Shown here: positions 2,393 through 51,360 of the stretch, piece by piece
How positions within the stretch are numbered: position 1 is the stretch's first letter
How the letters are laid out: the number at the start of each line of letters is the position of its first letter
Source: Bdellovibrionota bacterium
GTDB lineage: Bacteria > Bdellovibrionota > Bdellovibrionia > Bdellovibrionales > JAEYZS01
Direction: 5' to 3'
Length of the DNA: 64,000 nt
Assembly: GCA_040386775.1 (NCBI GenBank)
Contig: JAZKEU010000024.1
Location: forward strand, 1-64,000
The notes under the pieces: model-generated
What the model was told of the DNA's origin: nothing
What the model saw: the letters and a program-made list of their open reading frames with translations, nothing else
Database searches by the model: none
Translations under genes and position numbers: made by a program

Positions 2393-2458
2393 ATATCCTC
2401 CTGTTACGCTTCTAAGGCTTGTAGCACAAAAGTCTGGATTTCTAGATATCGCATTAAT

Positions 2459-2497
2459 ATCGGATTTAATTTGAAAAATTATCTATTTAAATCCGAT
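2459..2497. promoter_or_regulatory. 11-bp inverted repeat in the divergent promoter region of island A
   Basis: ATCGGATTTAA at 2459-2469 is mirrored exactly by TTAAATCCGAT at 2487-2497, with a 17-base AT-rich spacer. It lies between the divergently transcribed primase (start 2392) and the 286-aa gene (start 2506). The second arm ends 8 bases before that ATG. This is typical of an operator for a dimeric repressor. Which protein binds is not visible; the 286-aa product or the XRE regulator at 7536 are candidates. Confidence 0.5.
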
Positions 2498-2505
2498 AGG
2501 TTAAT

Positions 2506-3366: not shown

Positions 3367-3496
3367 AGATATAACACCAATTAATCTATCTATGGCGATC
3401 TAGGCTAAAACTTTATTTGTGCAAAAATTCGACGACCACACGATAAGACGCTAAATAGCTGTTCGTTCATCTACTCCCCCTGGCTATTGTCTAAGA

Positions 3497-6091
3497 TTAT
3501 CTAGAAGTAACCCGTGATCTTGCTTGGATTGCTGCTTTTACTTCGTCATACACAGTTTGTACTACTCTATCTGCGGATTCTATTGTTACAGCCAAACCAT
3601 ATTTAATTTCAGAAGGTAATCGGCCTGCTTCGGCTTTGCAATTTACCATAATTTTCATTGCTTCCTCGGCGCTAAAGGTAGTGAGGTCTTCTCCCTCATA
3701 TATTTCGTGCTGTAAAGTACCTCTTCGGGCTGTTTGCCAAGCAACTTCTTGAGTTGATATGCGCAGAGGATTCTCAACTATCTTACCAGCTCGCGAAAAC
3801 CATAACTGAGCCTTTCTATAGCGCCTATTCATAATCTCTACAGGGGAAATCCAAGATAAAGTTACAACCATTCTTTTAATAGTCCTGACACCGCTCAAAC
3901 CTATCGGAAGAGGAATCTCAAAAATTTTTGCTTCATCTGCTCCAATCGAACCAAATCCTATTGTCGTAGCTCGATGATTCTCACAAAGTAATGATCTAGA
4001 TTCTTCAATTTCTCCATACCCTAAAAATCTAGTGACCCAATTTCTTAATCTTGTATTTCTGAATGCAGTAGGCGCTGTTGCTTCAATTAATTCTTTAGCT
4101 TCTTTCCACGAAGCACCATGGGCTAAGAGAGTTTTGGCGAGAACTGTGAAATATTCTTCAGGGATTTCATTTCCAATTGCTTCGTACTGCTCCAAGCTTT
4201 CTAAAATTTTTGCTCCTAGACGAGTTACCAAGGCCGCAGAGTTGCTAGTGCCATTACTATGGTTATAAAGGTTTAAAGCTCCCTGAGAATTAGATGGAGA
4301 CGCAACTTTTTGTCCAGGCGGTTTAGTTAAAGATTGAGATGGCCAATATTCTGTAGAATCTTGCTCAGTCTTACGAGCAGAGAACAACATTCTACCTCCG
4401 GGAGCTAAAATATCTGGCTTCACAGCATTTCTGTAACCTAACCCAAATGAAGAAAATGGGCTGAAAACCGAACTGTCTTTAAGTAAATCAATTCGCATAG
4501 GATCGGTAGCGAAAGTAGAATTATCAGAGTAGCTTGATCCAACAGTTAAACCGTTTAAAGATTCAGCTGGGGAAAGAATTTTTTTTGTTATAGTATCTTT
4601 TGTTAAATTTAAGAGAGCATGCTCTTGTCGATTCTCCAATGACAACAGTTCGATACTTCTTTTTGGAAGAGGAATTTTTATATCAGGATTGTAGTTGCCA
4701 GCACTAATAACAAAAAGAACATTATATTCCCAAGATAACCAATCTATAAGGCGCGCCAAAGGGCTCATAAAATGAAGAAAGGGCCGATACTTTTCGCAAA
4801 TGGATAAATTTATTATTTTTACTTTTTTTGCAGTAGGGGTAGACCCCTCGCCATCTCTAAACATGCGTATAACGGCCTGATGAATAATATCTACTACAAG
4901 TTTATTTTCTGGAACAATCTCTTCATTCATTGAGCCTTGAGACTTGGAAATCATAACTGGTCTTACGTAGATTGGTTTCTCTAGGCGATTTTGACCACTG
5001 TCATCATCTCCGTTGATAATAAGGCTGGCCATAGCAGTTCCATGATATCTTTGTTCAGTTGAAACTAACGAAGAAATTCCATCTGGATCATCAACAATAA
5101 TTCGATCTTTCAACCAACTATGATTTTGAATTGGCATTCCATCAATTAGAGCTACAACAGGCTCATAGGTGTTTGGATCATAGGGAAATTGTGTAGTAGA
5201 CGCAGGAGACTCTATTTCGGAATCAGTTTCGATTTTAATAAAGGACTGTCCTGTTGGCCTAAAAAACATAATTTGATCAGCTTTCGCTAAACTAATCTGC
5301 GGTTGAGTATGAAATAAATTTTCTATTGCCGAAATAGGCAGATTAACCAAAATAGAGTGATATCTGATTGATTCAATTTCACACGAAGTAATGTGCGTCC
5401 CTCCTGCTTCTTCAACAGCACTTAAGACATTTACCTCAGACTCTTCTCGAGCCTCCTGTGTTTTTCGAAACCATAATTCTATTTCTACATTAATATTTTC
5501 TTGATCAGTTTGAACTCGATCTTCCCAATCTTCTCGAAGACCAGTAGCCAAGAGTCGATCTTCAGTATCCCAAGTGCGGAGAGAATATAAATGCTCGAAA
5601 AGATCTCTCCATTTAGTTTTACCTCTACCATAATCGGCGGAATCACCATCTCGCTTATACTTTCTCCACATAGCCATTAGCTGGCGCATGCCCTCTTGAT
5701 TAGACATTACAAAATAAACACGGCGACTCAACTGCCCAATTTCCTGGTTTTCCTCATTTTCCCCTAGAATATGAAAATCTTCGTTTTCTGCGACTTCTTC
5801 CCCATTAAATTCAGTTAGCCATTCTAAACCTTCTATATTTTTTGAAGCCTTGTAAAAATCTTCAACGGAACCAATCGTTTCAAAAACAATTACATGTTCT
5901 GGTTCAATTGCATCTATGGAAGTAGTTAGCTGCATTTGGGACGATAGAATTTCAAAATTGCTATCTAGACGCTGCGCCTGTCTTACCTTACCCGGTAAAT
6001 ATAAACCGCCCCCCGAACCTCCCGGAGGCCGACCTCTTCTTGAATTTGTGGGCTTCGGTAAAATCAGAAGAGGCTTATTGGGTAGAGCCAT
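3497..6091 (-). CDS. ietS: IetS-like subtilisin (S8) protease of an ietAS defence pair
   Basis: 864 residues, no signal peptide. A long N-terminal region (1-305) precedes a subtilase domain with the catalytic set Asp317 (VVALIDG), His350 (RYHGTAMASL), oxyanion Asn466 (VISAGN) and Ser616 (NGTSNSAALV). A C-terminal beta-rich region of about 190 residues follows. The ATG overlaps the stop of the upstream AAA ATPase gene by one base (TAATG), so the two are co-translated. The S8 protease plus AAA ATPase pair is the ietAS arrangement, first described as a plasmid stability pair of Agrobacterium and later reported as anti-phage. The protease is expected to be the effector, kept inactive until triggered. 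Family assignment is from motifs and pairing. Confidence 0.85.
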   Translation of the reverse strand: MALPNKPLLILPKPTNSRRGRPPGGSGGGLYLPGKVRQAQRLDSNFEILSSQMQLTTSIDAIEPEHVIVFETIGSVEDFYKASKNIEGLEWLTEFNGEEVAENEDFHILGENEENQEIGQLSRRVYFVMSNQEGMRQLMAMWRKYKRDGDSADYGRGKTKWRDLFEHLYSLRTWDTEDRLLATGLREDWEDRVQTDQENINVEIELWFRKTQEAREESEVNVLSAVEEAGGTHITSCEIESIRYHSILVNLPISAIENLFHTQPQISLAKADQIMFFRPTGQSFIKIETDSEIESPASTTQFPYDPNTYEPVVALIDGMPIQNHSWLKDRIIVDDPDGISSLVSTEQRYHGTAMASLIINGDDDSGQNRLEKPIYVRPVMISKSQGSMNEEIVPENKLVVDIIHQAVIRMFRDGEGSTPTAKKVKIINLSICEKYRPFLHFMSPLARLIDWLSWEYNVLFVISAGNYNPDIKIPLPKRSIELLSLENRQEHALLNLTKDTITKKILSPAESLNGLTVGSSYSDNSTFATDPMRIDLLKDSSVFSPFSSFGLGYRNAVKPDILAPGGRMLFSARKTEQDSTEYWPSQSLTKPPGQKVASPSNSQGALNLYNHSNGTSNSAALVTRLGAKILESLEQYEAIGNEIPEEYFTVLAKTLLAHGASWKEAKELIEATAPTAFRNTRLRNWVTRFLGYGEIEESRSLLCENHRATTIGFGSIGADEAKIFEIPLPIGLSGVRTIKRMVVTLSWISPVEIMNRRYRKAQLWFSRAGKIVENPLRISTQEVAWQTARRGTLQHEIYEGEDLTTFSAEEAMKIMVNCKAEAGRLPSEIKYGLAVTIESADRVVQTVYDEVKAAIQARSRVTSR

Positions 6092-7071
6092 TATTTTTTA
6101 ATTTTTTTTGTGTTTAAAAATGATTCAGATTGGCGTTTTATAATTGATTCCATTTTAGAACTTGGCTGTTCAAGAATAAATCTTCTAAAAACATCTAAGC
6201 AGAAATTTTCGACATCAGAAAATGAAGATCCAGTCATCAATTTAGGTAAGCTTTTTTTCGACTGTCCAAATTTAAGCTGGAATCTACTTTCAAAAATTGT
6301 AAGAATTTTTTCAATTTGAGTTGTTGTTGGTAAATCTAATTCCAACTTGACTTGAAATCTTCTCCAAACGGCTCTGTCGAGTAGTTCAGGATGGTTGCTG
6401 GCAGCCATTACAATCACATGAGAAGGTAGGCTATCTATCTGCATTAATAAAGAACTAACGACTCTTTTTATTTCGCCCGTTTCATGCTCATCGCCGCGTT
6501 CTTTACCGACGGTATCGAACTCGTCGAAAAAGAGTACGCATCGCTGAGTTTTAGCGTAGTCAAAAATTTGTTTTAACCTTTGATTGGTCTCACCTAAAAA
6601 GCTGGTTATGAGGCCATCATATCGTACTGTAATAAAGGGTATAGAAAGAGCTTCAGCAACTGCTTCGGCCAAAGATGTTTTTCCGTTTCCCGGAGGACCC
6701 GATAGCAGGATTCTGTTTCTTGGTTCTATATTGTATGATTTTAGCAGGTCTGAGCGAATTTGTTCTTCTATTAACTCAACACAAGCAGAATGAATATTTT
6801 GGTTTAAAACCATTTTATCTAAAGATTTTTGTGGAATTGTTTCAAAAATTAATGATTGTAAACGAGAAGAGTTAGTTATGAAGCCGATATCTTTTGTCTC
6901 ACGTGGCTTAGCACTAGGAACTTTCATTTCAGCAATTAGTTGGTTAGCAAGAGTATGATGTTGTTTAGATCTTTCCTCTGCAATAATTGCTTCAACAGTT
7001 TGTTGAAAAAGACGTTCATCACCTCTGGTTTTAGAACGTATTAAATTAAGTAATAGATCAGATCTCGCCAT
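6091..7071 (-). CDS. ietA: IetA-like AAA+ ATPase of an ietAS defence pair
   Basis: 326 residues with one classical AAA module: Walker A GPPGNGKT (125-132), Walker B VLFFDEFD (179-186), a sensor-1 segment MAASNHPELLD near 222, and arginine fingers in the AVWRRF segment. The N-terminal 90 residues are helical with no recognised domain. The gene is immediately upstream of, and overlaps by one base, the S8 protease gene. AAA ATPases with this partner are IetA-type, and probably act as sensor or regulator of the protease. A spastin-like or generic AAA protease-partner role is an alternative, but the pairing and the position in a mobile island favour defence. Confidence 0.85.
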   Translation of the reverse strand: MARSDLLLNLIRSKTRGDERLFQQTVEAIIAEERSKQHHTLANQLIAEMKVPSAKPRETKDIGFITNSSRLQSLIFETIPQKSLDKMVLNQNIHSACVELIEEQIRSDLLKSYNIEPRNRILLSGPPGNGKTSLAEAVAEALSIPFITVRYDGLITSFLGETNQRLKQIFDYAKTQRCVLFFDEFDTVGKERGDEHETGEIKRVVSSLLMQIDSLPSHVIVMAASNHPELLDRAVWRRFQVKLELDLPTTTQIEKILTIFESRFQLKFGQSKKSLPKLMTGSSFSDVENFCLDVFRRFILEQPSSKMESIIKRQSESFLNTKKIKK

Positions 7072-7203
7072 TATGCATTGCCCCGTATGTATCTTTAAAA
7101 AAAATAAAATACTTTGCTAGTTTCTACAATACAAATTGACGTGCGGTACTTAAAGTATGTGGCGCGCTATGGTCATTCTGGATCGTGGGAGATATGGCTT
7201 CCC

Positions 7204-7539
7204 TTAAATTTCATAGTCCTGTCCTTCAATACGAATTCGGCCGTCTTCGCATTTAAACGTAGTTTTGGAATTCTGTCCCCATGCTTCAACTATAACTAGG
7301 TCTACCGACTCTTTAAGAATTTTTACAGGCCAACCTTCTTCCGCAAAACCGACACGCTGTTCGGACACAAACTTCTCACAGGCGTCCATTGGGAATTCCT
7401 TGTCACTAACTTGTACCACTCCAAGTTTAGGGTATTTCTTTTTTGATACCATTTTCTTAATTTCATCTTTTGTATAACTCTTAGCAAAAGCAATTTCTGA
7501 AGCTAGTAATACTAAAAGAAAAATTCTTTGAAATTTCAT
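7204..7539 (-). CDS. Small exported protein, second gene of the tRNA-proximal module (island A)
   Basis: 111 residues with a signal peptide (MKFQRIFLLVLLASEIAFAK, cleavage likely after AFA) and a mature part of about 90 residues with two cysteines (near 54 and 97) that could form a disulfide. No known family. It overlaps the XRE regulator stop by 4 bases (ATGA), exactly as the unrelated lipoprotein gene does in island B. It thus occupies a swap position downstream of a conserved regulator. A cell-surface role such as superinfection exclusion is possible but not shown. Confidence 0.75.
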   Translation of the reverse strand: MKFQRIFLLVLLASEIAFAKSYTKDEIKKMVSKKKYPKLGVVQVSDKEFPMDACEKFVSEQRVGFAEEGWPVKILKESVDLVIVEAWGQNSKTTFKCEDGRIRIEGQDYEI

Positions 7540-7823
7540 TTTTTCACCCTTCTTAAAACAACCTCAAAAATTCCAGCGTTAATTTCATCCTTAAAGACTT
7601 CAAGTTTGTCGGCTTCGACTTTTGATTTTGTTCCAAAACATAAATAATTAATATCAACTCCTAAACAATCGGCGACGGCTTTAAGTTGACGGATACTTTT
7701 GGGCTCACTTCCACTTAGCCAACCATGCAAAGTTTGAACAGGCACCTTTGACTTCTTGGACAAAGAAGTAATGGTTAGCCCTTTTTCTCGAATGATTTTA
7801 CGTAAGATTGTTTTCAAATCCAT
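7536..7823 (-). CDS. XRE (Cro/CI-type) helix-turn-helix regulator, island A
   Basis: 95 residues. The HTH spans about residues 17-60 (GLTITSLSKKSKVPVQTLHGWLSG as a split motif, then SIRQLKAVADCLGVDINYLCFG), followed by a short helical tail ending AGIFEVVLRRVKK. It is nearly identical to the protein at 40585-40872 in island B, differing mostly in the middle (residues 55-77). It is coupled to the 44-aa small ORF upstream (10-base overlap) and to the exported protein downstream (4-base overlap). It probably autoregulates this operon through the repeats at 8021-8078, but that is inference. Confidence 0.9.
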   Translation of the reverse strand: MDLKTILRKIIREKGLTITSLSKKSKVPVQTLHGWLSGSEPKSIRQLKAVADCLGVDINYLCFGTKSKVEADKLEVFKDEINAGIFEVVLRRVKK

Positions 7824-7948
7824 AGATCATCCTCGCTATGTATAGGCGGGAGTTGAAGACCATTTCCGGCCATCAATAGTAAAATCCCATCAACCATAAG
7901 AAAACCTATGGCCAAGCAAAGTATGTATGGACGTTTGATAGCGGTCAA
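7814..7948 (-). CDS. 44-aa membrane small ORF with TTG start, conserved between the two islands
   Basis: Starts with TTG at 7948 behind a strong AAGGAGG site with good spacing, and stops inside the XRE gene start (10-base overlap). Product: MTAIKRPYILCLAIGFLMVD followed by GILLLMAGNGLQLPPIHSEDDLWI. It has one hydrophobic segment (residues 8-27) and an acidic tail SEDDLW. The homologous ORF at 40460-40594 has the same length, same start codon and same overlap, with 25 of 44 residues identical. The conserved tail and start architecture argue for translation rather than chance. Function unknown; a small membrane partner or leader of the XRE operon. Confidence 0.72.
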   Translation of the reverse strand: MTAIKRPYILCLAIGFLMVDGILLLMAGNGLQLPPIHSEDDLWI

Positions 7949-8226
7949 AAATACCTCCTTTGATTAATCAAACGCTCGATGGAAATTGAATGGCGGATAG
8001 TTAGAGGCGACGTAATGATGACTCTGTAGTTGTTTTTGTAGTTTGTGAAACTACAAACTACAGCGCGAACTACAGAAGCATAGCAACTCACGTGATTTCG
8101 CGGGTTCTTGCGGGATATCCGAAAAGATGAAACTTTGAAGCAGATGTTGCTTAGTTAATTGAAATGATTTCGAATTTTTGAATTTGGAGCCACTTCTCTC
8201 ATTTCTTAAAAAGTGGCTTACAAATT
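7949..8226. promoter_or_regulatory. Conserved non-coding end of island A (attachment arm / control region)
   Basis: No gene is seen here. Read on the minus strand from the tRNA it contains: a CCACTT...AAGTGG hairpin (8190-8216); a 27-base block identical to island B (8144-8170); a related TATCCCG / ACCCGC block; nested CTGTAGTT repeats (8021-8078); and a GCGTTTGAT / ATCAAACG inverted repeat that brackets the ribosome site of the 44-aa ORF. Island B carries the same elements in the same order at 40178-40459. Likely roles are integrase/excisionase arm sites, the module promoter and possibly an origin for the primase/helicase. Confidence 0.6.
8021..8078. repeat. Nested inverted CTGTAGTT repeats, island A
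   Basis: On the minus strand the motif CTGTAGTT occurs twice in direct orientation and once inverted (AACTACAG). Inside it is a perfect 10-bp stem TTTGTAGTTT / AAACTACAAA with a 3-base loop. Island B has the same motif with inverted copies at 40321-40374. Repeated and mirrored copies fit a multi-subunit protein-binding site: operator, excisionase site or iteron-like origin. Confidence 0.6.
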
Positions 8227-8303
8227 TGGTAGGCCGTCCAGGACTTGAACCTGGGATCCTCCGGTTATGAGCCGGATGCTTTAACCAACTAAGCTAACGG
8301 CCC
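8227..8303 (-). tRNA. tRNA with CAT anticodon (elongator Met or Ile2)
   Basis: 77 nt including an encoded CCA. The cloverleaf reads: acceptor GGGCCGT / ACGGCCT, D arm, anticodon stem TCCGG / CCGGA with loop CTCATAA (anticodon CAT), T stem CCAGG / CCTGG. The paired acceptor end rules out initiator tRNA. Elongator tRNA-Met and lysidine-modified tRNA-Ile2 cannot be separated reliably by eye. It is the attachment gene of island A, whose conserved end begins right after its 3' end. Confidence 0.92.
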
Positions 8304-40098: not shown

Positions 40099-40173
40099 TC
40101 AGGCGTAGCTCAGTGGTAGAGCAACCGGCTGTTAACCGGTTGGTCGCAGGTTCGAGTCCTGCCGCCTGAGCCA
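40099..40173 (+). tRNA. tRNA-Asn (GTT)
   Basis: 75 nt with CCA. Acceptor TCAGGCG / CGCCTGA, anticodon stem ACCGG / CCGGT with loop CTGTTAA (anticodon GTT), T stem GCAGG / CCTGC. Its last 12 bases and 4 flanking bases are duplicated at 51345-51360, marking it as the attachment gene of island B. Confidence 0.96.
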
Positions 40174-40177
40174 TTTT
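40162..40177 (+). repeat. attL core of island B
   Basis: CCGCCTGAGCCATTTT, comprising the tRNA-Asn acceptor end and CCA plus TTTT. It recurs exactly at 51345. Confidence 0.9.
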
Positions 40178-40459
40178 CAATCCCCACTTTTTAAGAAATG
40201 ATCTAAGTGGGTAGAATTAAAAAATTCCAAATCATTTCAATTAACTAAGCAACATTTTGCTAAACTCTCATCTTTTCGAATATCCCGTGAAAACCCGCAA
40301 AATCATGCGAGTTGATGTCATTCTGTAGTTATCGTTGTAGTTACTAACAAAAAAACTGCAAAGTAACTACAGAACCGTCATCCTCGTCATGCCTGTCACC
40401 TCCGACTATCAACCATTCTTTTTTCATCGAGCGTTTGATTTTTATATTTGGAGGTAGAT
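40178..40459. promoter_or_regulatory. Conserved non-coding end of island B
   Basis: No gene. It shares with island A, in order: hairpin CCACTT...AAGTGG (40184-40210), a 27-base identical block (40229-40255), a TATCCCG / ACCCGC block, CTGTAGTT repeats (40321-40374) and the arm GCGTTTGAT near 40432 that pairs with ATCAAACG inside the 44-aa ORF. This is the segment best conserved between the islands, and likely contains integrase arm sites and the module promoter. Confidence 0.6.
40321..40374. repeat. Nested inverted CTGTAGTT repeats, island B
   Basis: TTCTGTAGTTA at 40321 is mirrored by TAACTACAGAA near 40364, and TGTAGTTACT by AGTAACTACA inside it. The two stems compete, as expected of mirrored protein sites rather than of one RNA hairpin. 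Same motif as at 8021-8078. Confidence 0.6.
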
Positions 40460-40594
40460 TTGTTTCTCATCAAACGTCTGTTCTATTTCCTGTTAGCCAT
40501 AGTTTTTAATATGGTTGACCGGATTTTTATATCCTTAGAAGGAAATGGTCTTCAACTCTCGGTTATTCGTAGCGAGGATGATCTATGGAGTTGA
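40460..40594 (+). CDS. 44-aa membrane small ORF with TTG start (island B copy)
   Basis: TTG at 40460 follows GGAGGT with 5-base spacing; stop at 40592-40594 inside the XRE gene start (10-base overlap). Product begins MFLIKRLFYFLLAIVFNMVD and ends EGNGLQLSVIRSEDDLWS. One hydrophobic segment (7-26) and an acidic tail. Length, start codon, overlap and 25 of 44 residues match the copy at 7814-7948 (IKR, LAI, MVD, GNGLQL, SEDDLW). Its start lies within a potential ATCAAACG hairpin that may control translation. Function unknown. Confidence 0.72.
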   Translation: MFLIKRLFYFLLAIVFNMVDRIFISLEGNGLQLSVIRSEDDLWS

Positions 40595-40872
40595 AAACAA
40601 TTTTACGAAAAATCATTCGAGAGAAAGGACTTACAATCACTTCTTTATCAAAGAAGTCGAAGGTTCCTGTTCAAACTCTTCATGGCTGGTTAAGTGGGAG
40701 CGAGCCCAAAAGTATTCGACAATTAAAGGCTGTCGCGGATTGCTTGAGTGTCGACCTCGATTATCTCTGCTTTGGAATTAAATCTAAAACAGAAAAAGAT
40801 AAAATTGAAGTATTCCAGGATGAAATCAATGCTGGAATTTTTGAAGTTGTTTTAAGAAGGGTAAAGAAATGA
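40585..40872 (+). CDS. XRE (Cro/CI-type) helix-turn-helix regulator, island B
   Basis: 95 residues, almost the same as the island A regulator (7536-7823): identical through the HTH (residues 3-54) and the tail DEINAGIFEVVLRRVKK, with changes around 55-77. Coupled upstream to the 44-aa ORF and downstream by a 4-base ATGA overlap to a lipoprotein gene. With the HTH unchanged, the two islands may recognise each other's operators, which would allow cross-talk or immunity between them. Confidence 0.9.
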   Translation: MELKTILRKIIREKGLTITSLSKKSKVPVQTLHGWLSGSEPKSIRQLKAVADCLSVDLDYLCFGIKSKTEKDKIEVFQDEINAGIFEVVLRRVKK

Positions 40873-41552
40873 ATAGAATTGTTTTTCTTATATTAATACT
40901 TTTATTATCTTCCTGCGCACACAGAAATATGACTCGCGAGGAGTGGCTAGAGGTGGGTCAAAGAACCTATTCCAATACCACAAAAGAACAGCTTATTAAA
41001 AATGCTGAAAAGATTTTAGTTTTAGCAGACGGCGATGACTTTAAATTTATTCATAAGCCTAACGGGTTTGTGGCCTCTAGAAGTTGGCTAATATACTTGG
41101 TTATCTCAGCCACTATGGGGACAGATCATTGGAATTTTGAAGTTCAAGAAAAGGATGGAAAACTAATTGCTACTGTTAACGCTTCACAAACAGCGGGGTC
41201 TGTCACTGGCTATGCCGTTAATAATCAAGCTGGAACTGTCACAACACCAACTATGGGAACGCCAATACAAGGAACCGCAATATACGATACCTTTTGGAAT
41301 CGACTAGATTACCTTCAAGGATTAAAAAATGATTGGATGGATTGCAAGAGGGCAAACCGCAAGATCAAAGACAAAGAAACATGGGGCAACATTGAACCGC
41401 TTTGTTTATCTATTAACGTAAAAGATGATTTACCTAACGATCTTTCTGATATCGAAGTAGATCGCATTTTTAAACAAACCAGTCTTGACGATGATCGTCC
41501 TGCTCGGGCAAAGAAAAAATATCTTAAGAATCGAAACAAGGAACACCGATAA
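40869..41552 (+). CDS. Lipoprotein, second gene of the tRNA-proximal module (island B)
   Basis: 227 residues. Leader MNRIVFLILILLLSSCAHRN has a lipobox (LSSC) at residue 16. The mature part is soluble and acidic to basic, with a Gly/Thr-rich stretch (VNNQAGTVTTPTMGTPIQGT) and a Lys-rich end. No family recognised. It is unrelated to the exported protein at the same slot of island A, so this slot accepts different envelope proteins. Confidence 0.77.
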   Translation: MNRIVFLILILLLSSCAHRNMTREEWLEVGQRTYSNTTKEQLIKNAEKILVLADGDDFKFIHKPNGFVASRSWLIYLVISATMGTDHWNFEVQEKDGKLIATVNASQTAGSVTGYAVNNQAGTVTTPTMGTPIQGTAIYDTFWNRLDYLQGLKNDWMDCKRANRKIKDKETWGNIEPLCLSINVKDDLPNDLSDIEVDRIFKQTSLDDDRPARAKKKYLKNRNKEHR

Positions 41553-41673
41553 TACGAGTATCCAAGTGAATCCTAAGAAAACTGACATCCAATATCCAGA
41601 CCAATTGATAGTCGTAATAAAATTTATTTAATTAATTGAATGTTTACCTGTATCTTATTTATGGGAGAAAAAC

Positions 41674-43179
41674 ATGAATCGATATATTAAGTTATCAGAA
41701 ATAAATTTTGGGAGCCTTGATGCGGAAACCGAAGTCACTTTAGAACATGGGAAGTATTTTGATATTGTATATCACGATCCATTTAATACAAAAGATAGAA
41801 TTCGAAATGGTAAAATTATAGTACACGGACGAAAGGGAACTGGAAAATCGGCTCTCGCTTGCTATCTACAAAGATCCTCAGGGCCCAACTTATTTGTACA
41901 AAAATTTGAATATTCAATGAAGGATCTTGAGCAAATTGTGCAAATACCAGATGTTGAAGATCCTTCTGCATCAATGTCTCAATCTTTATGGCACTGGATA
42001 TTTCTTTGTGCTCTGGGTAAATTTATTTTAGATGATCAAAGTATAGCGCTATCTTCTGCTCAAAGAGAGGAATTTGGTCGATTTTATAAAATTAATCAGG
42101 GTTATTGTTCTCCCGGGTCTCTAGAGTTAAAACAACAAGTCGAAAGCGAAAAACTACAGGTACGCATCGCCGCGCTAAACAGACTCCTTAGTATGTCTGG
42201 AATATCAGAGGTAGAGTCTATTCAAGGACGTGCAAGTTTTTTGAAAATCATCAACCCCTTGCAAGAACTTATGAAAAATACTTTTATGTCTTGTAAAAGG
42301 GATGTAAAAAATGAGTATTTTATAATAATTGATAATCTAGATATTGAATACACTGGAACTGAGAATCAAAAAAATGCGCTGCTGGGCTTGATTCGAGCTG
42401 CAAAGAATCTTTTCACCACTTTTCGTGAATACGGAGTGCGTATTTGTCCAATTGTACTGATCAGATCGGATATGCTAGAAGAACTAAAATACGAAGCAGA
42501 TACTAATAAAATTGCTTTAGCAAATGGCTTGAAACTCAATTGGTACGACCATGATACTTATTTAGGTGACGAGCAAAATGTTCCGCTGCGAAATCTTATT
42601 TCATCTCGTATAAAATATTCTTATAAGAAATCATCAATTTCAATTACCGATGGCTGGCATGAACTATTTAGAGATTGGAATCATGATAAACCCAGTTTTA
42701 AATACTTAATTGATAAAACACTCTATCGTCCTCGAGATTTAATTTGCCTGTTTAATTTATTAAGCGAGAAGTTTCCAAAAGCCGATGCTGTCACAAAAGA
42801 AATGGTTGATAAAACATCTAAGGAGTTTGCCGCTTACATGGTAGGAGAATGGCAGAATGAGCTCTCTGCCCACCTAAGCTCTGAAAAAATAAATAAATTA
42901 TTTGATTCTTTAAAGCTCGTATCAAATAATAAGTTTACATTTGAAACTTTCAAACAAAAAAACCAGTTTGATAATCCTACGGCAGTTGAATTTTTAGAAA
43001 CCGCATTCATATTTGGATTAATCTGTGCCTACCCGGTTTCTAATAAAATTGCCTGGTCACATCGCCCAAGCCCCGATTTTGATAACTTAGATTTAACAAG
43101 TGGTATTGAAATGGGTCTTCATTTTGCTTTCAATGATCATTTTGTTAAACCTTCCAGAAGAACTTTTTGGACTCTATAA
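41674..43179 (+). CDS. P-loop ATPase, Sll1717/ORC-CDC6-like
   Basis: 501 residues. It starts with the family-type SEINFGSLDAETE segment, then Walker A HGRKGTGKSALACYL (Gly52-Ser59) and Walker B EYFIIIDNLD (214-223). The remainder is helical, with a winged-helix-like C terminus. This pattern fits the Sll1717-type P-loop ATPases, related to STAND/ORC ATPases and often found in mobile and defence regions. No effector domain is visible. It points toward the NACHT gene on the opposite strand, so they are convergent and not one operon. Confidence 0.75.
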   Translation: MNRYIKLSEINFGSLDAETEVTLEHGKYFDIVYHDPFNTKDRIRNGKIIVHGRKGTGKSALACYLQRSSGPNLFVQKFEYSMKDLEQIVQIPDVEDPSASMSQSLWHWIFLCALGKFILDDQSIALSSAQREEFGRFYKINQGYCSPGSLELKQQVESEKLQVRIAALNRLLSMSGISEVESIQGRASFLKIINPLQELMKNTFMSCKRDVKNEYFIIIDNLDIEYTGTENQKNALLGLIRAAKNLFTTFREYGVRICPIVLIRSDMLEELKYEADTNKIALANGLKLNWYDHDTYLGDEQNVPLRNLISSRIKYSYKKSSISITDGWHELFRDWNHDKPSFKYLIDKTLYRPRDLICLFNLLSEKFPKADAVTKEMVDKTSKEFAAYMVGEWQNELSAHLSSEKINKLFDSLKLVSNNKFTFETFKQKNQFDNPTAVEFLETAFIFGLICAYPVSNKIAWSHRPSPDFDNLDLTSGIEMGLHFAFNDHFVKPSRRTFWTL

Positions 43180-43194
43180 CCACCATAAATTTGC

Positions 43195-46100
43195 TTAACT
43201 TCTAAATGTACAATCAAGAAGTATTGTTTCAATGGCCACCTGCTCTTGCTCCGTAGCTAGATTTTCTATCTTAGAAAAATTCGCTCTAACTTCATTTCTC
43301 TTCGATTTATTTTTTCTTAAATCTTCATCGGTCCATCTTTCGCATAGGCAATCTGCAACTACATATATCCCATGCCTAGTTGAATTTTGTTTCAAATATC
43401 GATCTACAAGTTGCGTCTGCAGTGCTTCGTATACACCATCATTCCAGCATCCCTTTACTTCTACTATAACAGTTAGGATATCGATGCCATCTTTACCTTT
43501 TATTGTCGCATCAATCTGAATATCTGTTCTCTGGCCGGTTCCAGGTCCCACGCTCGGACGTATTTGAACCTCTCGATTTGCAATAATGCCCTTCGATTTA
43601 ATGTCTCTATCAAAATGCCTCTTGAGATGATCAGAAATTTCATTTTCGTCTTTTGGTCGACATTTATCTCGCTCAGTATTCCAAATATCTGGAGTGCTTG
43701 GTGGAGTCCCTTGTAAAGACTCTTGATAGCGTAGTATCGACTCCAGTATTACTTGCATGAGTTCTTCTTGGTTTCTAACTAGCCTCTTAGATTTATTTGT
43801 TATGGTTAACAGTAAATGACTTGGCTCAGGAGAAACCCATTCAAGCGATCGATTACGTTTCTCCGCCTCTGTTAAATGGTAGTTCAACCACGGAAGTTCT
43901 TTATGTCTTTGAACCATTTTTTTCAAGGCATCACAACTAGATCGAGTTCCTCTATTCACTAATATCCTAAAGCATGCGTCTCTAATATCACCCGCTCGCT
44001 CCTTCGGTCCAATAGCCCCGCCCATTCTGGCCGAGTAAGGAAATAAATCGATCATCCATGAATAAAAATCTACTAACTGCTCGTCCGATAATTTTTCGAC
44101 AAAAGCAGTCTCATGAGCATTTTTGGCTACAATATCTAAGATTAATTCTTGCCCGAATTCTTTATCTTTTTCAAGAATCGGCCATAAAATATTCCATCCT
44201 GATTTTGAAGATTCAGCTACTAAATTCCTTGCGGCAGCTAAGACGATATCTCTTTGCTCTCGATCTTTAGGCAAAGGAGAAGAAATATAACTTGCCAATA
44301 AATGTTCGGCTTCAGAATAACCTAAACTTAAAATTTCACCCAATAGAGCTATCGCTGAAAGAGGGGGTAATGAACGCGCAAGAATATGAAGTTTTTCTTG
44401 TAGGTCTCTGTTTATGTAGGAACTAAACCTACTTATAACAAAGATATTGCCGTTACCCTCTCGCCCCTCTTTATCTGCAACTTTTAATATCGTTTCTTCA
44501 AAAACGTCTTGTGCATATGGATACCCGATTTTGAGAGCATTTTTTTGAGATTCTACTTCGTCTGCTCCAAAGGTTGGGTAGGCTACAATTGGAGATAACC
44601 ATTTAGGCCATATGCCCTTACCCTTCTGGGACAAAAATTCTGGCGAATACTTATTTATCAACGAAATTGCCTTAATACCTGCTGACACTACAAACTCTAT
44701 CGAGTTTTTCTTTAGATATGACTCAATATTTGGCTCAACCTCTTCCAAAAATTTCTTTGCGTAGGAAATAATTTTTTCTTGTTTTCTATTGTCCAAAGAA
44801 AGCCAGGAAGGCGAATCCTCTATATGTTCATCTCTTAAAGCATATTCACCCGTCTCTTGGTTAGCAGTTAACAGGCGAGCTAGATGATAAAAATGCTCAA
44901 TCTTTCCTTCTTCGATTTCTTCTATGGTTTCATTAATAAAACCAGAAATTTTGTTCGCCCAGTCGACTTTATCTTTTTTCTTACTTAGATTCTTGAGCTC
45001 TATTCCCTGTTCATGCAATTTTCTCATTCTCTTTTCGTCTTCGCTTTGAAGAATAATCGGTCCATACAATGATTTGAATTTCTCATTTACAGATGAATTA
45101 TTCTGATAAAGCGGGAAAAGCGCGTCTGTGTGATCTGTATTGGCCCAATCAAAAACAAATCTTAAGGTTTCTATAATTTTCTCAAATTTTGAAGGATCTA
45201 ACTCTTTATTAGCTAATTCTAATAGCCAAAAAAAATCTCTATTATCGAGTAGGCGCTGGGCGTGGACTGCTTTAAAATCATCTAATGGAATCTGAATAAT
45301 AGATAAAAATATTTTCCTCCGTTTTTCTACTGCTTCGTAAAACTCCTGGGCATATTCTTTAGATTCAAATCTACTCGCTATTGGGAGGTGCTTATCCAGC
45401 CTCTTATAAGCTACTTTCGCAAAATTTGGATATAAATCAATCGCATCAAGCTTATTCCAGCAATGATAAATAATTTTTTCTATGGCCCTTCCCATTTTGC
45501 TGTGATTTGTATGTTTATCTGCGTGCTCCTCAACCCAAGCCAGTGCTATGGGTAAAGCATCGTCGGGCATCTCCTCTATTAAGTCATAAGATATGAAGTG
45601 TGCATATGAACCATGGTAAAAATCGTTTTTCGGTGGGATTATATACTTAAACAGCTCTTCAGCAGTTATTTGCTCTGGCCACAGTGACTGCAAAGCATAT
45701 CCCTTTAGCTGGTCGTTTGGATCTTCTTCTTCGAGAAGTTTTTTTAACTCTGCCTTAGTTTTTGTGTCTCCCAAAATACTTATCGTGCTCGCTGAATTAA
45801 CACGTAATTGGTAATCCTCAGATTTATCTAAAGCTTGCTCCAGTAAAACTGGCATTAATGTATGTAGCTCACAGATTTCTGCAATATCGACAGCCAGTTT
45901 GCGGAGATTAAAAGACAGCTTTTTATCTAAAATAATTATAGCTAATTTATCATCTAGCCCCTCGTACTTTAAACCCTTAAATCGCTCACGAAATCCCAAA
46001 TCAATATGCAAATAACTATTGCCAGTTTCTTCTGCCTCCAAAATTTTTTGAACAGTTTGTTTTTTATATTCCTCAGGTAATCCAGATAAGTCACATTGAA

Positions 46101-47340
46101 GTAAAACTTCAGGGTCTTTATTTAGAATAAGATTAAAAAAATCTCTATTCATCGACGCAAGGAAAGCAGCTCCTTGCTGTAATTGTGGAACTAGCTTTGG
46201 GTTAGATGGATTTGGATTAAAAAATAATGAATTCAATTTATTAGTCTCAATCTTAAAATTATTCAGTCCTTGAGCCATTAAAAATTCTGCATATGTTTGA
46301 TGAGCCCATCCCATTCTATTTATTCCACGAGATGTAAATAGGCCAGAATCTAGCGTTTGCAATAGCTCCTCTGCAGTTATTCGATCTAAGCCATCCAAGT
46401 CTTCAGCTATATCCTTTATTGTTAAATCGTTTTGATCTCGTTCATGTTCAGGCCCCAACCAAATTGAATTTTTATTGGATAGAATTGATAAGATTGCTAT
46501 TCTCTCAGCTATAGCCAATTTTTGTGTGCCCTCCATTCCTTTTGTTTTCGGAGACACTAATCGACTTTTGCTCTGTTCTTCACAAAGCTGTAAACACCCA
46601 ACAGAATATATAGTTTTTTGATCGTCTGCTAATTTTTGCTTTGATTTAAAAGTGTTTAATAAAAATTTTAAAGTAACAGGCTTTATCGCCAATGGAACCA
46701 CTCCTCGCTCTTTGACTTCCTTAATAAAACTTGCTGGGTCTACTCCTTCGTTCTCGCAGGCAACAACAATATCTTTTTCTAGCAACGGAACCATTTCGTA
46801 AACTGATAAGGAGCCAGGAAATATTGTTTCTAATTCTTTTTCTAAATATTGTGGCCATACTCCAGTTCTACAGGATATTCGAACAAACAATCTTTCTTTA
46901 GGTAGTTTCGAAATTTCTCGTGCTAAAATGTGAGATACTGTATCAACTCTTAATAAGCATTCATCCAAACTATCTATATATAAATAAAGATTTTTTCCGT
47001 TATTTTTCCACTCTTCTATTTCTGCAGAATGAAAAATCTCTCTAATCAAGCGTTCTTCTGAGCCGAAGTTGTTCAAATTTTCATGTATTATTATAGTATT
47101 TGCATCAGCTTTAGGCCTCTTTCCTGAAACGGTATCTAGTAAAATCTGTGACTTTCCTATGCCTGGCTCACCAAGATAGATTGTGCATTTAGACTCTTCT
47201 GCTTTTTCAATTGTATTAAGGTTCGGCTGCAGATCTTTTCCATATTTAGTTTCTGGGTCGATGATAAATCCATCTGGATCTGTGTGATAAGACCCCTCTC
47301 TTGAACAAACATATCGTTGCCATAAATAAGATTTACTCAT
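43195..47340 (-). CDS. NACHT/STAND NTPase with C-terminal PD-(D/E)XK nuclease-like domain (putative anti-phage)
   Basis: 1381 residues from the ATG at 47340, with GGGGAG seven bases upstream; the in-frame ATG at 47394 lacks a site. Walker A YLGEPGIGKSQ (57-64) and Walker B LYLYIDSLDE (118-127) with following arginine segment mark a NACHT-type NTPase. A long helical-repeat region of about 900 residues follows and could be the sensor. Near the C terminus QRTDIQIDATIKG and LTVIVEVKGCWND (Asp1273, Glu1294-x-Lys1296) fit a PD-(D/E)XK nuclease core. Related Avs-type proteins usually carry the nuclease at the N terminus. Single gene, own promoter. Confidence 0.82.
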   Translation of the reverse strand: MSKSYLWQRYVCSREGSYHTDPDGFIIDPETKYGKDLQPNLNTIEKAEESKCTIYLGEPGIGKSQILLDTVSGKRPKADANTIIIHENLNNFGSEERLIREIFHSAEIEEWKNNGKNLYLYIDSLDECLLRVDTVSHILAREISKLPKERLFVRISCRTGVWPQYLEKELETIFPGSLSVYEMVPLLEKDIVVACENEGVDPASFIKEVKERGVVPLAIKPVTLKFLLNTFKSKQKLADDQKTIYSVGCLQLCEEQSKSRLVSPKTKGMEGTQKLAIAERIAILSILSNKNSIWLGPEHERDQNDLTIKDIAEDLDGLDRITAEELLQTLDSGLFTSRGINRMGWAHQTYAEFLMAQGLNNFKIETNKLNSLFFNPNPSNPKLVPQLQQGAAFLASMNRDFFNLILNKDPEVLLQCDLSGLPEEYKKQTVQKILEAEETGNSYLHIDLGFRERFKGLKYEGLDDKLAIIILDKKLSFNLRKLAVDIAEICELHTLMPVLLEQALDKSEDYQLRVNSASTISILGDTKTKAELKKLLEEEDPNDQLKGYALQSLWPEQITAEELFKYIIPPKNDFYHGSYAHFISYDLIEEMPDDALPIALAWVEEHADKHTNHSKMGRAIEKIIYHCWNKLDAIDLYPNFAKVAYKRLDKHLPIASRFESKEYAQEFYEAVEKRRKIFLSIIQIPLDDFKAVHAQRLLDNRDFFWLLELANKELDPSKFEKIIETLRFVFDWANTDHTDALFPLYQNNSSVNEKFKSLYGPIILQSEDEKRMRKLHEQGIELKNLSKKKDKVDWANKISGFINETIEEIEEGKIEHFYHLARLLTANQETGEYALRDEHIEDSPSWLSLDNRKQEKIISYAKKFLEEVEPNIESYLKKNSIEFVVSAGIKAISLINKYSPEFLSQKGKGIWPKWLSPIVAYPTFGADEVESQKNALKIGYPYAQDVFEETILKVADKEGREGNGNIFVISRFSSYINRDLQEKLHILARSLPPLSAIALLGEILSLGYSEAEHLLASYISSPLPKDREQRDIVLAAARNLVAESSKSGWNILWPILEKDKEFGQELILDIVAKNAHETAFVEKLSDEQLVDFYSWMIDLFPYSARMGGAIGPKERAGDIRDACFRILVNRGTRSSCDALKKMVQRHKELPWLNYHLTEAEKRNRSLEWVSPEPSHLLLTITNKSKRLVRNQEELMQVILESILRYQESLQGTPPSTPDIWNTERDKCRPKDENEISDHLKRHFDRDIKSKGIIANREVQIRPSVGPGTGQRTDIQIDATIKGKDGIDILTVIVEVKGCWNDGVYEALQTQLVDRYLKQNSTRHGIYVVADCLCERWTDEDLRKNKSKRNEVRANFSKIENLATEQEQVAIETILLDCTFRS

Positions 47341-47584
47341 AGTAATTCTCCCCTTGCCCACCGTAAGGTATATTACCACAAAATATAAAAACATTAACTA
47401 TTAAGATTAGACCTCTCTAGGGGGAGCCAACGAACAATCACGCATTCAACTCCCTATCGTGTGGACCTCGAATCTTTGTGAAAAATGAATTTTGGCTAAT
47501 TTCGCCCACCTTGATATATAGTAAAAATGATAATTCCTATATATTAGGTATTCAATAGCCGTCCTTTACTTTATCCACTTCCAT

Positions 47585-48310
47585 ATGAAGAAACATAAGA
47601 CATTGAACAATGAATTTGCTTTAACAGCAATTTTTAGTAAAGATTTTCAACTTAGCAAATCCTTCTTATCTATGGATGAGTCGGAATTTTTTTCTGAACT
47701 AACACTCCTATTTGAATATGAAATCAATCAAATCGCCGCGTTCCTAGTCCATGAAATATTCTCAGGTGAAACCACAATATTTTTTAATAAGATTAAGGAG
47801 ATGTCAGAGCGTCTCACAAAAAATAATAGTTTAAAAATAGACAAAAAAGCTTTTAAAAAGGCCGAGTGGGATTTAAAAACTAAAGATTTTAATGATATTA
47901 ACTTTATACTACCTTGGAATGAACCCACGTATTTACTTTCTGATGTCTTTACGAAATCATTTGAATACTTAAAAGAAATTGAAAATAAAATTGAACGAAA
48001 GCCTTACAAAGGAAAACCATTCTCCTCTCCTCGGACTTATACTAAATACGAATTCTATCGAAATTTATGCTTAGTTGAAATCGCCATGAAGAAAAAGCTT
48101 GGCAGTAAGCAGGACGATTCATTCAAACGTTTTGTGGAAGAAAATGTTTTACAATATAAAGACTATTGCCTTGTCCTGCGAGACGGAGAACGAACCAGCA
48201 CAGATGACAATGATGACGGTTTAATATCTTACGATAATTTTAGAAGGTCCTTTAGAAGATACGCCCGAGAGCATTTCAGAGATTTACAGAAAAAAGCGGA
48301 CAGAAGCTAG
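47585..48310 (+). CDS. Unknown island protein before the primase
   Basis: 241 residues, soluble and charged, mostly helical, ending FRRYAREHFRDLQKKADRS. No recognised domain. Divergent from the NACHT gene and 81 bases upstream of the primase/helicase on the same strand. Replication accessory or regulator is possible, but nothing in the sequence shows it. Confidence 0.7.
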   Translation: MKKHKTLNNEFALTAIFSKDFQLSKSFLSMDESEFFSELTLLFEYEINQIAAFLVHEIFSGETTIFFNKIKEMSERLTKNNSLKIDKKAFKKAEWDLKTKDFNDINFILPWNEPTYLLSDVFTKSFEYLKEIENKIERKPYKGKPFSSPRTYTKYEFYRNLCLVEIAMKKKLGSKQDDSFKRFVEENVLQYKDYCLVLRDGERTSTDDNDDGLISYDNFRRSFRRYAREHFRDLQKKADRS

Positions 48311-48363
48311 TCTCTTTTTCTTTCCACTGTCCGTGATAACTCAATTTGTTTCACATATATACC

Positions 48364-48385
48364 CCTCCTAACAAACCAAAGGAGG
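48364..48385 (+). promoter_or_regulatory. Hairpin that pairs with the ribosome site of the primase gene
   Basis: CCTCCT (48364-48369) is complementary to AGGAGG (48380-48385), with a 10-base loop; the ATG follows at 48392. In an mRNA starting upstream, the ribosome site would be hidden. Confidence 0.4.
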
Positions 48386-48391
48386 TATTGT

Positions 48392-49846
48392 ATGGCTGAA
48401 TCAACAGTCGAATTAAAAGAAATTCTCGATGTATTAACAGAAGAATTGTCAGCAAAACTTTTTCGTGGCGATAATGGCGAGTCCTGCATCACGATAAACG
48501 ACGATAGCAAACAGAAAACATTTATACTCAGCTCTTCCCAATGGAGAGACTGGTTTATTCAATTCGTGCGCAAGAGAGAGTGGGGCGTATCATCGTATCT
48601 CAGAGACGAGCTTATTGAGGAATTGTTGGCACTAGCAAGTGTACATATAGAACAGGTCAATGTGCGCATTGGGAGAACAGAAGAAGCTATTCAAATTGAT
48701 TTAAACGACGACTCGTATAATGTTGTTTCTATCAACGAAAAAGGGTTTAGAGTTCAACAACCGAAAAATGTTCATTTTCTTCGTCCAAACAAACAGCAAC
48801 CTTTACCAATTCCCATTAAAACCGACAAAAAGATCTTCATCCCATTATTACAAACAATATTTCCAGTATCTTTTGATATGTTGATTTTGATTTTAACTTT
48901 TATGTTGAAAGCTATTGATCGTGATCGTGGTTCTTTTGCTCATTTAGTTGTTGAAGGGCCTCAAGGATCTGGAAAAAGCATGCTGTCCAAGAGAATAAAG
49001 GCTTTGATCGACCCCGCGTCTCCGTGTTTTTTTTCATCTCCTAAAGATGTGAGCGACATTTTAGTGGCCTCAGTTCACTCTTATTTATTAGTCTTTGATA
49101 ATCTTTCAGGGCTTACACACTTTATGGCAGATGTTTTTTGCAGACTCTCCACGGGTGGAGGACTTTCAAAAAGAAAACTATACTTTGACCACGAGGAAAT
49201 GTTCTACAAGCTGCATCGCTCATGTATTCTTAACGGCATTGATGAGCCTAGCAATAGACCCGACTTTCTAGATAGATGCATCACCGTTCAGTTAAAAGAA
49301 TTTAAGAATAAAAATAGAGTTGCTGAATCAGAGCTTGATCGTCAGTTTGAAGAAAATAGACCGCAACTCCTTGGCGGACTTTACGGGCTCTTATCAGAAT
49401 GTTTGCGCGTGCTACCCTCAATCCCAAACAATAATCTTCCTAGAATGACGGATTTTTGCCGCATGGGTTTAGCATTGGAAAAAGTTTTGAAGCTTGCTCC
49501 TGGTTCGTTTATGGAAGCCTACGAAAAAAATCGCTCAGAGCAGACTGAAAATGCATTCTGGGGAGACGAGCTCTGTTGTGCTATTTTTGATAGACTCCAA
49601 CGCGAGGAAAAAGGAGCCATAGAAGGAACCGCTCACTCGCTAATGGGACGTTTGTTTAGAGACCGTCGTAAAACTGGAGGGCCACGCAGCCCGAGAGCCT
49701 TTTCTGGATGGCTAAAAAGAGTTGAGCCCTTATTAAAAACAAAAGGAATATTGGTTAAGCGTCTACCACGCACGGCTGACGAAAGAACAATTAGAATATA
49801 CTTTAAAAATCCTCCAGAGCGCAAAGAGGTTAGTTATGAGTATTAA
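48392..49846 (+). CDS. Island replication ATPase/helicase (SF3-like)
   Basis: 484 residues. Walker A EGPQGSGKSMLSKR near residue 190 and Walker B SYLLVFDNLSG near 230, then a sensor LNGIDEPSNRPDFLDRC typical of primase-associated SF3-like helicases of phages and islands. The N-terminal 180 residues are of unknown type. It holds the same slot as the primase/helicase of island A but is only distantly similar. Overlaps the excisionase start by 11 bases. Confidence 0.8.
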   Translation: MAESTVELKEILDVLTEELSAKLFRGDNGESCITINDDSKQKTFILSSSQWRDWFIQFVRKREWGVSSYLRDELIEELLALASVHIEQVNVRIGRTEEAIQIDLNDDSYNVVSINEKGFRVQQPKNVHFLRPNKQQPLPIPIKTDKKIFIPLLQTIFPVSFDMLILILTFMLKAIDRDRGSFAHLVVEGPQGSGKSMLSKRIKALIDPASPCFFSSPKDVSDILVASVHSYLLVFDNLSGLTHFMADVFCRLSTGGGLSKRKLYFDHEEMFYKLHRSCILNGIDEPSNRPDFLDRCITVQLKEFKNKNRVAESELDRQFEENRPQLLGGLYGLLSECLRVLPSIPNNNLPRMTDFCRMGLALEKVLKLAPGSFMEAYEKNRSEQTENAFWGDELCCAIFDRLQREEKGAIEGTAHSLMGRLFRDRRKTGGPRSPRAFSGWLKRVEPLLKTKGILVKRLPRTADERTIRIYFKNPPERKEVSYEY

Positions 49847-50189
49847 AATTTCAAGCAATCTCCATAATGACGAACCTGACAATTATGACGATTGTAAAAC
49901 CGCACCTTCTATGAGAAATAAGATTACTCAAGTATGGGGGCTCAGCGCGCCCCCTGAGCTTAATATTTTATACGCATCAAATGACGACATCTGTGAAAGT
50001 TCTTTGAAAACTGAATGGTTAGATAGTCGTGAGGCCGCCGAATTTTTAAGAATTTCGGTGAAGGCTTTACGGAATGCGAGTTCCAATGGCCAAATTCCAT
50101 TTTATAAGTTTGGTCGAAGAAATCGTTATCGAAAAGAAGAACTCAGCAAATTGTTGCTTACTCACAGAAGAGGTAAGCATGAATATTAA
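49836..50189 (+). CDS. Excisionase / AlpA-type helix-turn-helix protein, island B
   Basis: 117 residues from the ATG at 49836 (AGAGG six bases upstream, 11-base overlap with the primase gene). A second in-frame ATG at 49911 aligns with the start of the island A homologue, so the shorter form cannot be excluded. The C-terminal half carries the HTH_17 fold: WLDSREAAEFLRISVKALRN and GQIPFYKFGRRNRYRKEEL. Overlaps the integrase start by 11 bases. Probably the directionality factor of excision. Confidence 0.85.
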   Translation: MSIKISSNLHNDEPDNYDDCKTAPSMRNKITQVWGLSAPPELNILYASNDDICESSLKTEWLDSREAAEFLRISVKALRNASSNGQIPFYKFGRRNRYRKEELSKLLLTHRRGKHEY

Positions 50190-51276
50190 ATTTGACCCAG
50201 AGACCGAAGCTTATTCGGTTTCTTTCTCTAAGAGAAACCCAATTACTCGTCAGCCAGTTAGCTTGCGAAGAAAGGGGATTAAAAGCAAAGTAGAAGCTCA
50301 AAGAGTTTATCGAGAGCTCGTGATCGAAGTTGAAAAAAGAATTCAAGGGCAACAAATCCCTACTTGGGAGCTTATGATATCTGAGTTTCTTGAAGATATG
50401 AGAGAACGCGGCCTACTTGAGAGAACAATCCATACTTATGGTTTTTGCCTTCGAGCCCATACTTTAGAAGAGTGGGGTGAGCGTTTAATAAATGAAATAA
50501 CAACTCACGAGATTAGAATTCTAGTACAAAAGCGTGTTGGCCACAAATCCGTAGCCCATCAACAAAATCTTGTGAAATTCATTAAAGCAGTCTTTGTCTG
50601 TGCGATTGAACGCGGGTACATCAAGTCCAATCCAACACCCAGATATCGCTTTAAAATTAGTGATCGAGTTAAAAAAGTTCTAACCGAAGAACAAGTTAAA
50701 GCACTTTTATTAACAGCAAAAGAATTTGGAAGTGAATGGTATGAAACATGGGTTTTAGCAGTTTACACCGGCCTTAGAAGCGGTGAGCTTTATTCTTTAA
50801 CTTGGGATAAAATCAATTTTGAAACCAAGCAGATTACCGTTGATACTGCTTGGAACTCGAAAGATGGATTTAAATCAACTAAATCGGGACACGAGAGGGT
50901 TGTTCCTATTAATGAACATCTTTTATTAATTTTAAAAGAACTAAAATTATCAAAAAACTCTACTCCTTTTGTTCTCCCCCGCAATCCTTATTGGGATAAG
51001 GGTGGGCAGGCCAAAGAGCTTCAAAAGTTTTTGATCGGTCACAATCTCCCTCCAATTCGCTTCCACGATTTAAGAGCTACTTGGGCCACTATGCTATTAG
51101 GAAAAGGTGTCCCTCCTGCTCAAGTGATGAAAATGGGTGGATGGAAGGATATGACCACGATGATGATCTATATGCGTATGGCTGGAATTGACGTGCAGGG
51201 CGCCACAGATTGCTTGAATTTTTATCAGAAACCGACAGATGGGCAGGTTTTAAGCCTATCCAACGCTAATTTATAG
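50179..51276 (+). CDS. Tyrosine-type site-specific integrase, island B
   Basis: 365 residues from the ATG at 50179, which gives the same N terminus and the same 11-base overlap as in island A; a longer in-frame start at 50074 lies inside the excisionase gene. Catalytic residues: Arg200 (TGLRSGELYSL), His296 and Arg299 (FHDLRATWAT), Trp322 in the GGWK position, and Tyr331 (MIYMRM). The gene ends 68 bases before attR. It recombines the island at tRNA-Asn. Confidence 0.95.
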   Translation: MNIKFDPETEAYSVSFSKRNPITRQPVSLRRKGIKSKVEAQRVYRELVIEVEKRIQGQQIPTWELMISEFLEDMRERGLLERTIHTYGFCLRAHTLEEWGERLINEITTHEIRILVQKRVGHKSVAHQQNLVKFIKAVFVCAIERGYIKSNPTPRYRFKISDRVKKVLTEEQVKALLLTAKEFGSEWYETWVLAVYTGLRSGELYSLTWDKINFETKQITVDTAWNSKDGFKSTKSGHERVVPINEHLLLILKELKLSKNSTPFVLPRNPYWDKGGQAKELQKFLIGHNLPPIRFHDLRATWATMLLGKGVPPAQVMKMGGWKDMTTMMIYMRMAGIDVQGATDCLNFYQKPTDGQVLSLSNANL

Positions 51277-51344
51277 GACTCAGTAGTTATTCGTAGTTGC
51301 CTTAAATTTTTGTTCAATATAAACAATTATTTATAAGCGGCTCA

Positions 51345-51360
51345 CCGCCTGAGCCATTTT
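51345..51360 (+). repeat. attR core of island B
   Basis: Exact second copy of the 16-bp tRNA-Asn end sequence found at 40162. Following it, GGTCC and GGACC near 51366-51380 form a small hairpin that could be the displaced tRNA-Asn terminator. Confidence 0.9.

Follow-up and report, generated by a model that had tools for sequence, protein, structure and literature searches.

A recurring small hydrophobic ORF overlapping an XRE repressor gene in tRNA-integrating defense islands of Bdellovibrionota: a candidate coupled leader

Layout of the small ORF and its islands

We ask what role can be assigned to a 44-codon ORF lying directly before an XRE regulator gene in two islands of the same Bdellovibrionota contig, of which the first 64,000 nucleotides (the window) were analyzed. 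The first-pass annotation had described a TTG start, a strong ribosome site and a 10-base overlap with the XRE gene, all of which are present in both copies. Copy A (40460-40594, plus strand) encodes 44 aa with a hydrophobic core at about residues 7-27, and follows a Shine-Dalgarno sequence, GGAGG (40450-40454, plus strand), located 5 nt 5' of the TTG. Its stop codon TGA (40592-40594) lies just inside the XRE gene, whose ATG begins at 40585, making an overlap of 10 bases. Copy B had been placed at 7814-7948 with its strand omitted: the 44-aa, TTG-start ORF is there, on the minus strand (the region contains stops if read on the plus strand), with GGAGG at 7954-7958 (minus strand) at the same 5-nt spacing, and it precedes an XRE gene running from 7823 to 7536. 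A domain search assigns the XRE protein of island 2 (95 aa; 40585-40872, plus strand) to HTH_3 of the Cro/C1 type, and its 95-aa counterpart in island 1 (7536-7823, minus strand) is 91% identical. The XRE gene has a Shine-Dalgarno sequence of its own, GAGGA (40574-40578, plus strand), located 6 nt before the ATG inside the SEDD codons of the small ORF and kept in the other copies (as GAGGT in G128). No sigma-70-type promoter stands out above shuffled sequences in either window leader, and the small ORF had no matches in PHROGs (both copies) or NCBIfam (copy B).

Each copy occupies the tRNA-proximal end of an integrative element that also encodes an integrase, an AlpA/Xis protein and anti-phage cargo. 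Island 2, about 11.2 kb long (40162-51360), is complete and lies in tRNA-Asn (40099-40173, plus strand). Its 16-bp attL core (CCGCCTGAGCCATTTT; 40162-40177, plus strand) lies at the tRNA end and is repeated exactly, in direct orientation, as attR (51345-51360, plus strand). It encodes a tyrosine integrase (50074-51276, plus strand) with homologues in island 1 and in a further element described below (G056), an AlpA/Xis-like HTH_17 protein (49836-50189, plus strand), a Sll1717-family P-loop ATPase (41674-43179) and an EruA-like NACHT antiphage protein (43195-47394, minus strand) whose match falls below the curated cut-off. Island 1 (1-8226) adjoins tRNA-Met (8227-8303, minus strand) and carries the anti-phage genes IetS (3497-6091) and IetA (6091-7071), together spanning 3497-7071 on the minus strand, an AlpA-like protein, a P4-family primase C-terminal/D5 helicase (989-2392, minus strand), and an integrase homologous to the one in island 2, of which the contig start (position 1) leaves only the N-terminus. 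The primase-helicase of G056 is 52% identical to that of island 1; none was recognized in island 2, where the protein at 48392-49846 was examined. Integration at a tRNA with an integrase and direct att repeats, as is typical of satellites, is seen in island 2 and in G056, where the end of a tRNA-Ser is repeated.

The att-side leader (40174-40410 and 7990-8226) is common to elements in tRNA-Asn, tRNA-Met and tRNA-Ser. In the window the two leaders have a 26-bp identical block, AAATCATTTCAATTAACTAAGCAACA, as well as GTAGTT/AACTAC repeats (40323-40371, plus strand; also 51283-51298 and 8026-8073) that are probably integrase arm sites. The leaders of G056 and G116 contain CGTCA direct repeats about 11 bp apart, perhaps Xis/AlpA sites.

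Residue identity does not exceed DNA identity

The first-pass annotation had named purifying selection at the protein level as the support to look for, and the codon-level analysis does not show it. The reported counts are right (25/44 residues agree, with SEDDLW and GNGLQL identical), and they do not rise above chance given the DNA: the copies agree at 98/135 nucleotides, for which column shuffles yield a mean of 21.2 identical residues (P = 0.06). Reading the whole ORF in its two other frames gives 24/43 identical residues each, and with the tail removed the ORF frame keeps 19/37, the others 18/36 each. The ORF body (68% nucleotide identity) is less similar than the non-coding leader before it (74%). 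Differences fall evenly over the three codon positions of the ORF (11/13/13) versus 11/3/42 in XRE, and dN/dS (NG86) is 0.82 versus 0.04 in the adjacent XRE gene. Other pairs of copies for which dN/dS was computed range from 0.60 to 0.89, so that values well below 1 are not observed for the small ORF. Moreover, where the residue is invariant over four copies, 8/10 degenerate codons are also invariant in nucleotides, versus 20/66 in XRE (three copies). Taken together, the frame-independent identity, the dN/dS of 0.82 and the excess of invariant codons mean that peptide identity is not what has been kept: the amino acids of the small ORF are no more conserved than DNA identity by itself would produce.

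Part of the ORF sequence is instead held for nucleotide reasons, namely the XRE ribosome site, the XRE start and an inverted repeat. SEDDLW, taken before as a conserved protein tail, results from out-of-frame reading of the XRE Shine-Dalgarno (GAGGA) together with the XRE start, and the ORF stop is shared because of the first XRE codons (MEL/MDL-K). More generally, where a ribosome site and start codon overlap an upstream frame, they can give the false impression of a conserved peptide tail. The DNA encoding GNGLQL is identical over 18 nt. The inverted repeat, GCCATA...TATGGT, lies inside the ORF (40496-40515, plus strand) and is present in 4/4 copies (GCCATA/TATGGY); it may form an RNA hairpin or be an operator. 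Its 6-bp arms are nearly invariant over the four copies and hence without covariation. We rejected RNA structure as the main conserved feature, since this repeat is the only one that the four copies have in common. Structure prediction likewise shows no burial of the XRE ribosome site common to all four copies, with predicted unpaired probabilities of 0.39 (copy A), 0.04 (copy B), 0.03 (G056) and 0.73 (G128). An intrinsic terminator inside the ORF was also rejected; it was flagged in copy A only, with a weak stem and a distant T-run.

Further copies and the hydrophobic core

A profile of the ORF was searched in 144 genomes of the class and 369 genomes of the phylum. Among the 369 phylum genomes there are four full-length copies in total (A, B, G056 and G128) plus one remnant (G116), all of which adjoin a tRNA and an XRE gene of this type. 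Weaker matches were rejected because of stops in frame or because tRNA and XRE neighbors were missing. Scans of IMG/VR with XRE and with the ORF alignment gave no match, and phage and plasmid records returned distant XRE repressors only.

The ORF frame overlaps the XRE start in all four full-length copies. In G056 it belongs to a complete 7.7-kb element at a tRNA-Ser site with integrase, D5 helicase and lipoprotein. G128 (tRNA-Met site) has an assembly gap adjoining the ORF and an in-frame TGA in XRE. In the G116 remnant (tRNA-Met) a deletion fuses the first codons of the ORF to XRE, leaving a start region that reads AGGAG, 5 nt, GTG and then ALLKRPKAF. A start with its ribosome-site spacing is therefore kept in A, B and G116, including a change from TTG to GTG. 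An own ribosome site and start with a stop overlapping the next start, as in a leader ORF, are found in both window copies; the G056 copy has CTT at the start position. The expectation that frame-disrupting indels would count against the ORF is borne out in part by G056, which carries two extra nucleotides between its ribosome site and the N-terminus and lacks ATG, GTG or TTG at the start; within the 44 codons none of the four copies has an indel, compared with 5 gap events in the leaders of A and B. Two further loci (G118 and G013) have only the att-side leader in common, there without XRE, and the ORF is missing at the loci of XRE relatives with about 50% identity, both at tRNA-Asp and tRNA-Cys (G097, G076 and G133) and in G108.

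None of the four full-length copies has a stop in frame over its 44 codons (column-shuffle P = 0.005). This signal is weaker when an open ancestor is assumed, since the observed substitutions, placed at random, would then leave the frame intact with P = 0.40, 0.48 and 0.15 in the individual comparisons. T is enriched at codon position 2 over the four copies (column shuffle, P = 0.0014) and better retained there (64% versus 32% and 47% elsewhere), a signal that drops to P = 0.06 on variable columns alone. Compared with simulated descendants, the maximal KD19 hydrophobicity is significant in B (2.57) and G056 (2.94; P about 0.002 each) and not in A (2.01) or G128 (1.57), whose cores contain charged or polar residues. 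KR residues precede the core in A, B, G128 and the G116 remnant. The T bias suggests that hydrophobicity of the peptide matters and supports, over four copies, the earlier proposal of a hydrophobic segment kept as a property, individually significant in 2/4 of them. Hydrophobic character is thus kept loosely, while the exact residues are not.

Candidate roles and comparison with known systems

The explanation we place first, at slightly under an even chance, is that the small ORF serves as a hydrophobic leader whose translation is coupled to that of XRE, in the way that cbrX is coupled to cbrA. The small ORF would be the first cistron of a repressor operon at the tRNA end of tRNA-integrating defense islands. 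Ribosomes would load at its Shine-Dalgarno and make a short hydrophobic peptide, termination would occur just inside the XRE gene, and reinitiation on the overlapping XRE start would be possible. Leader translation may in this way contribute to the amount of repressor, a role that CbrX plays for CbrA and ORF-11 for first integron cassettes. The ORF, its ribosome site, the overlap, the recurrence, the element context and the lack of selection on residues are seen in the sequences; translation, coupling and the effect on XRE level are inferred. XRE has its own Shine-Dalgarno, and coupling therefore need not be obligate; as no common structure hides that site, it may be partial. Against coupling stand the XRE relatives that manage without such an ORF, as well as the CTT start of G056 and the two extra bases behind its ribosome site, and the enrichment of T at position 2 is a hydrophobicity signal that coupling alone does not require.

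This last signal speaks for a true small membrane protein with a single pass, selected weakly and at the level of its properties and made with XRE and the neighboring exported protein, a reading that we consider distinctly less probable and rank second. Such a peptide might anchor XRE, serve as its sensor or have a role in the envelope. The real frame, recurring without internal stops or indels and with its hydrophobic core kept, means that a small membrane peptide is possible; the significant KD19 values of B and G056, the KR residues before the core and the lipoprotein or exported protein encoded after XRE in several elements point the same way. It is weakened by the lack of purifying selection on residues, the polar cores of A and G128, the missing start codon of G056, the absence of the ORF from related elements and the loss of strength of the T signal on variable columns. 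Of the small membrane partner or sensor proposed earlier, the recurring frame and hydrophobic core stand, whereas nothing links the peptide to sensing or to XRE binding, and a sensor role has no support. Rather unlikely, and third in our ranking, is that there is no functional ORF at all and that a conserved cis element (operator, RNA hairpin or XRE ribosome site) happens to be open and T-rich. The even spread of substitutions over codon positions, synonymous sites more constrained than in XRE, the inverted repeat, the probability that the frame stays open by random substitution and the non-canonical start of G056 would all be expected of such an element; the ribosome site and start spacing kept in three copies, the absence of indels in four, the T bias at codon position 2 and the four open frames would not. 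A more elaborate form of the leader, quite improbable in our view, would tie repressor supply to co-translational membrane insertion of the peptide, such that envelope disturbance (e.g., phage entry) would stall or release the leader and so switch the defense island under XRE control.

The closest parallel in layout is cbrX-cbrA of Pseudomonas putida, in which a small ORF of membrane type runs 17 nt into the regulator gene and CbrA remains high when the CbrX peptide is altered with translation kept, so that only translation matters (PMC6591292). As in that system, the ORF studied here is of membrane type, has its own ribosome site and overlaps the regulator start in another frame (by 10 nt, versus 17 nt for CbrX). 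A recognizable Shine-Dalgarno is missing from cbrA and present in XRE; CbrX is chromosomally encoded and its sequence is highly conserved, whereas the small ORF is not conserved in its residues and resides on mobile elements. In class 1 integrons, ORF-11 is a translated leader that acts likewise for first cassettes, and ORF-11 and ORF-17 at attI1 encode short peptides beside the recombination site that lack a function of their own and raise translation of the next gene (PMC8876359). They are much shorter (11-17 aa), however, and located inside attI itself, and the gene that follows them is exchangeable cargo, while the small ORF is always followed by the XRE repressor. CutF is an exported leader protein acting in cis, with a membrane-targeted product encoded upstream of the controlled gene (PMC9973294), as is proposed here for XRE; it differs in being DUF2946-like with a stem-loop and with CxxxC and proline-rich motifs, both absent from the small ORF.

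The islands themselves resemble P4-type and PICI-like satellites and other tRNA-integrating defense islands in their tRNA att site, tyrosine integrase, AlpA-like protein, P4-family primase-helicase (island 1 and G056), Cro/C1-type repressor and anti-phage cargo. They differ from P4/PICI satellites in that no packaging, capsid-interference or helper-hijacking genes were recognized among the ORFs scanned, another ATPase takes the place of the primase in island 2, and the repressor is located at the attL end behind the small ORF. We found no description of this tRNA-integrating island family in the literature searched. The small ORF marks the regulatory head of a family that swaps anti-phage cargo (IetAS, EruA-like NACHT protein), and together with XRE it makes a simple, testable unit of repressor control. 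Arguably, the defense-island family is more interesting than the small ORF.

In several elements (40869-41552; L081:10164-10877; L004 at about 6359), XRE is directly followed by a gene for a lipoprotein or an exported protein, which sometimes overlaps the XRE stop by 4 nt and is possibly an exclusion or immunity factor. In island 2 it is a 227-aa lipoprotein (40869-41552, plus strand) that starts 4 nt before the end of the XRE stop and is 40% identical to the gene at the same place in G056; in island 1 it is a 111-aa exported protein (7204-7539, minus strand) that overlaps the XRE stop. The XRE family has a very conserved C-terminal motif, (E/D)EINAGIFEVVLRR(V/I)K(K/R) (e.g., 40810-40869). Upstream of XRE relatives at tRNA-Cys/Asp elements there are several palindromic CTCTTNAGAG-like sites (L008:200-320, L009-L011:1440-1500), which are probable operators.
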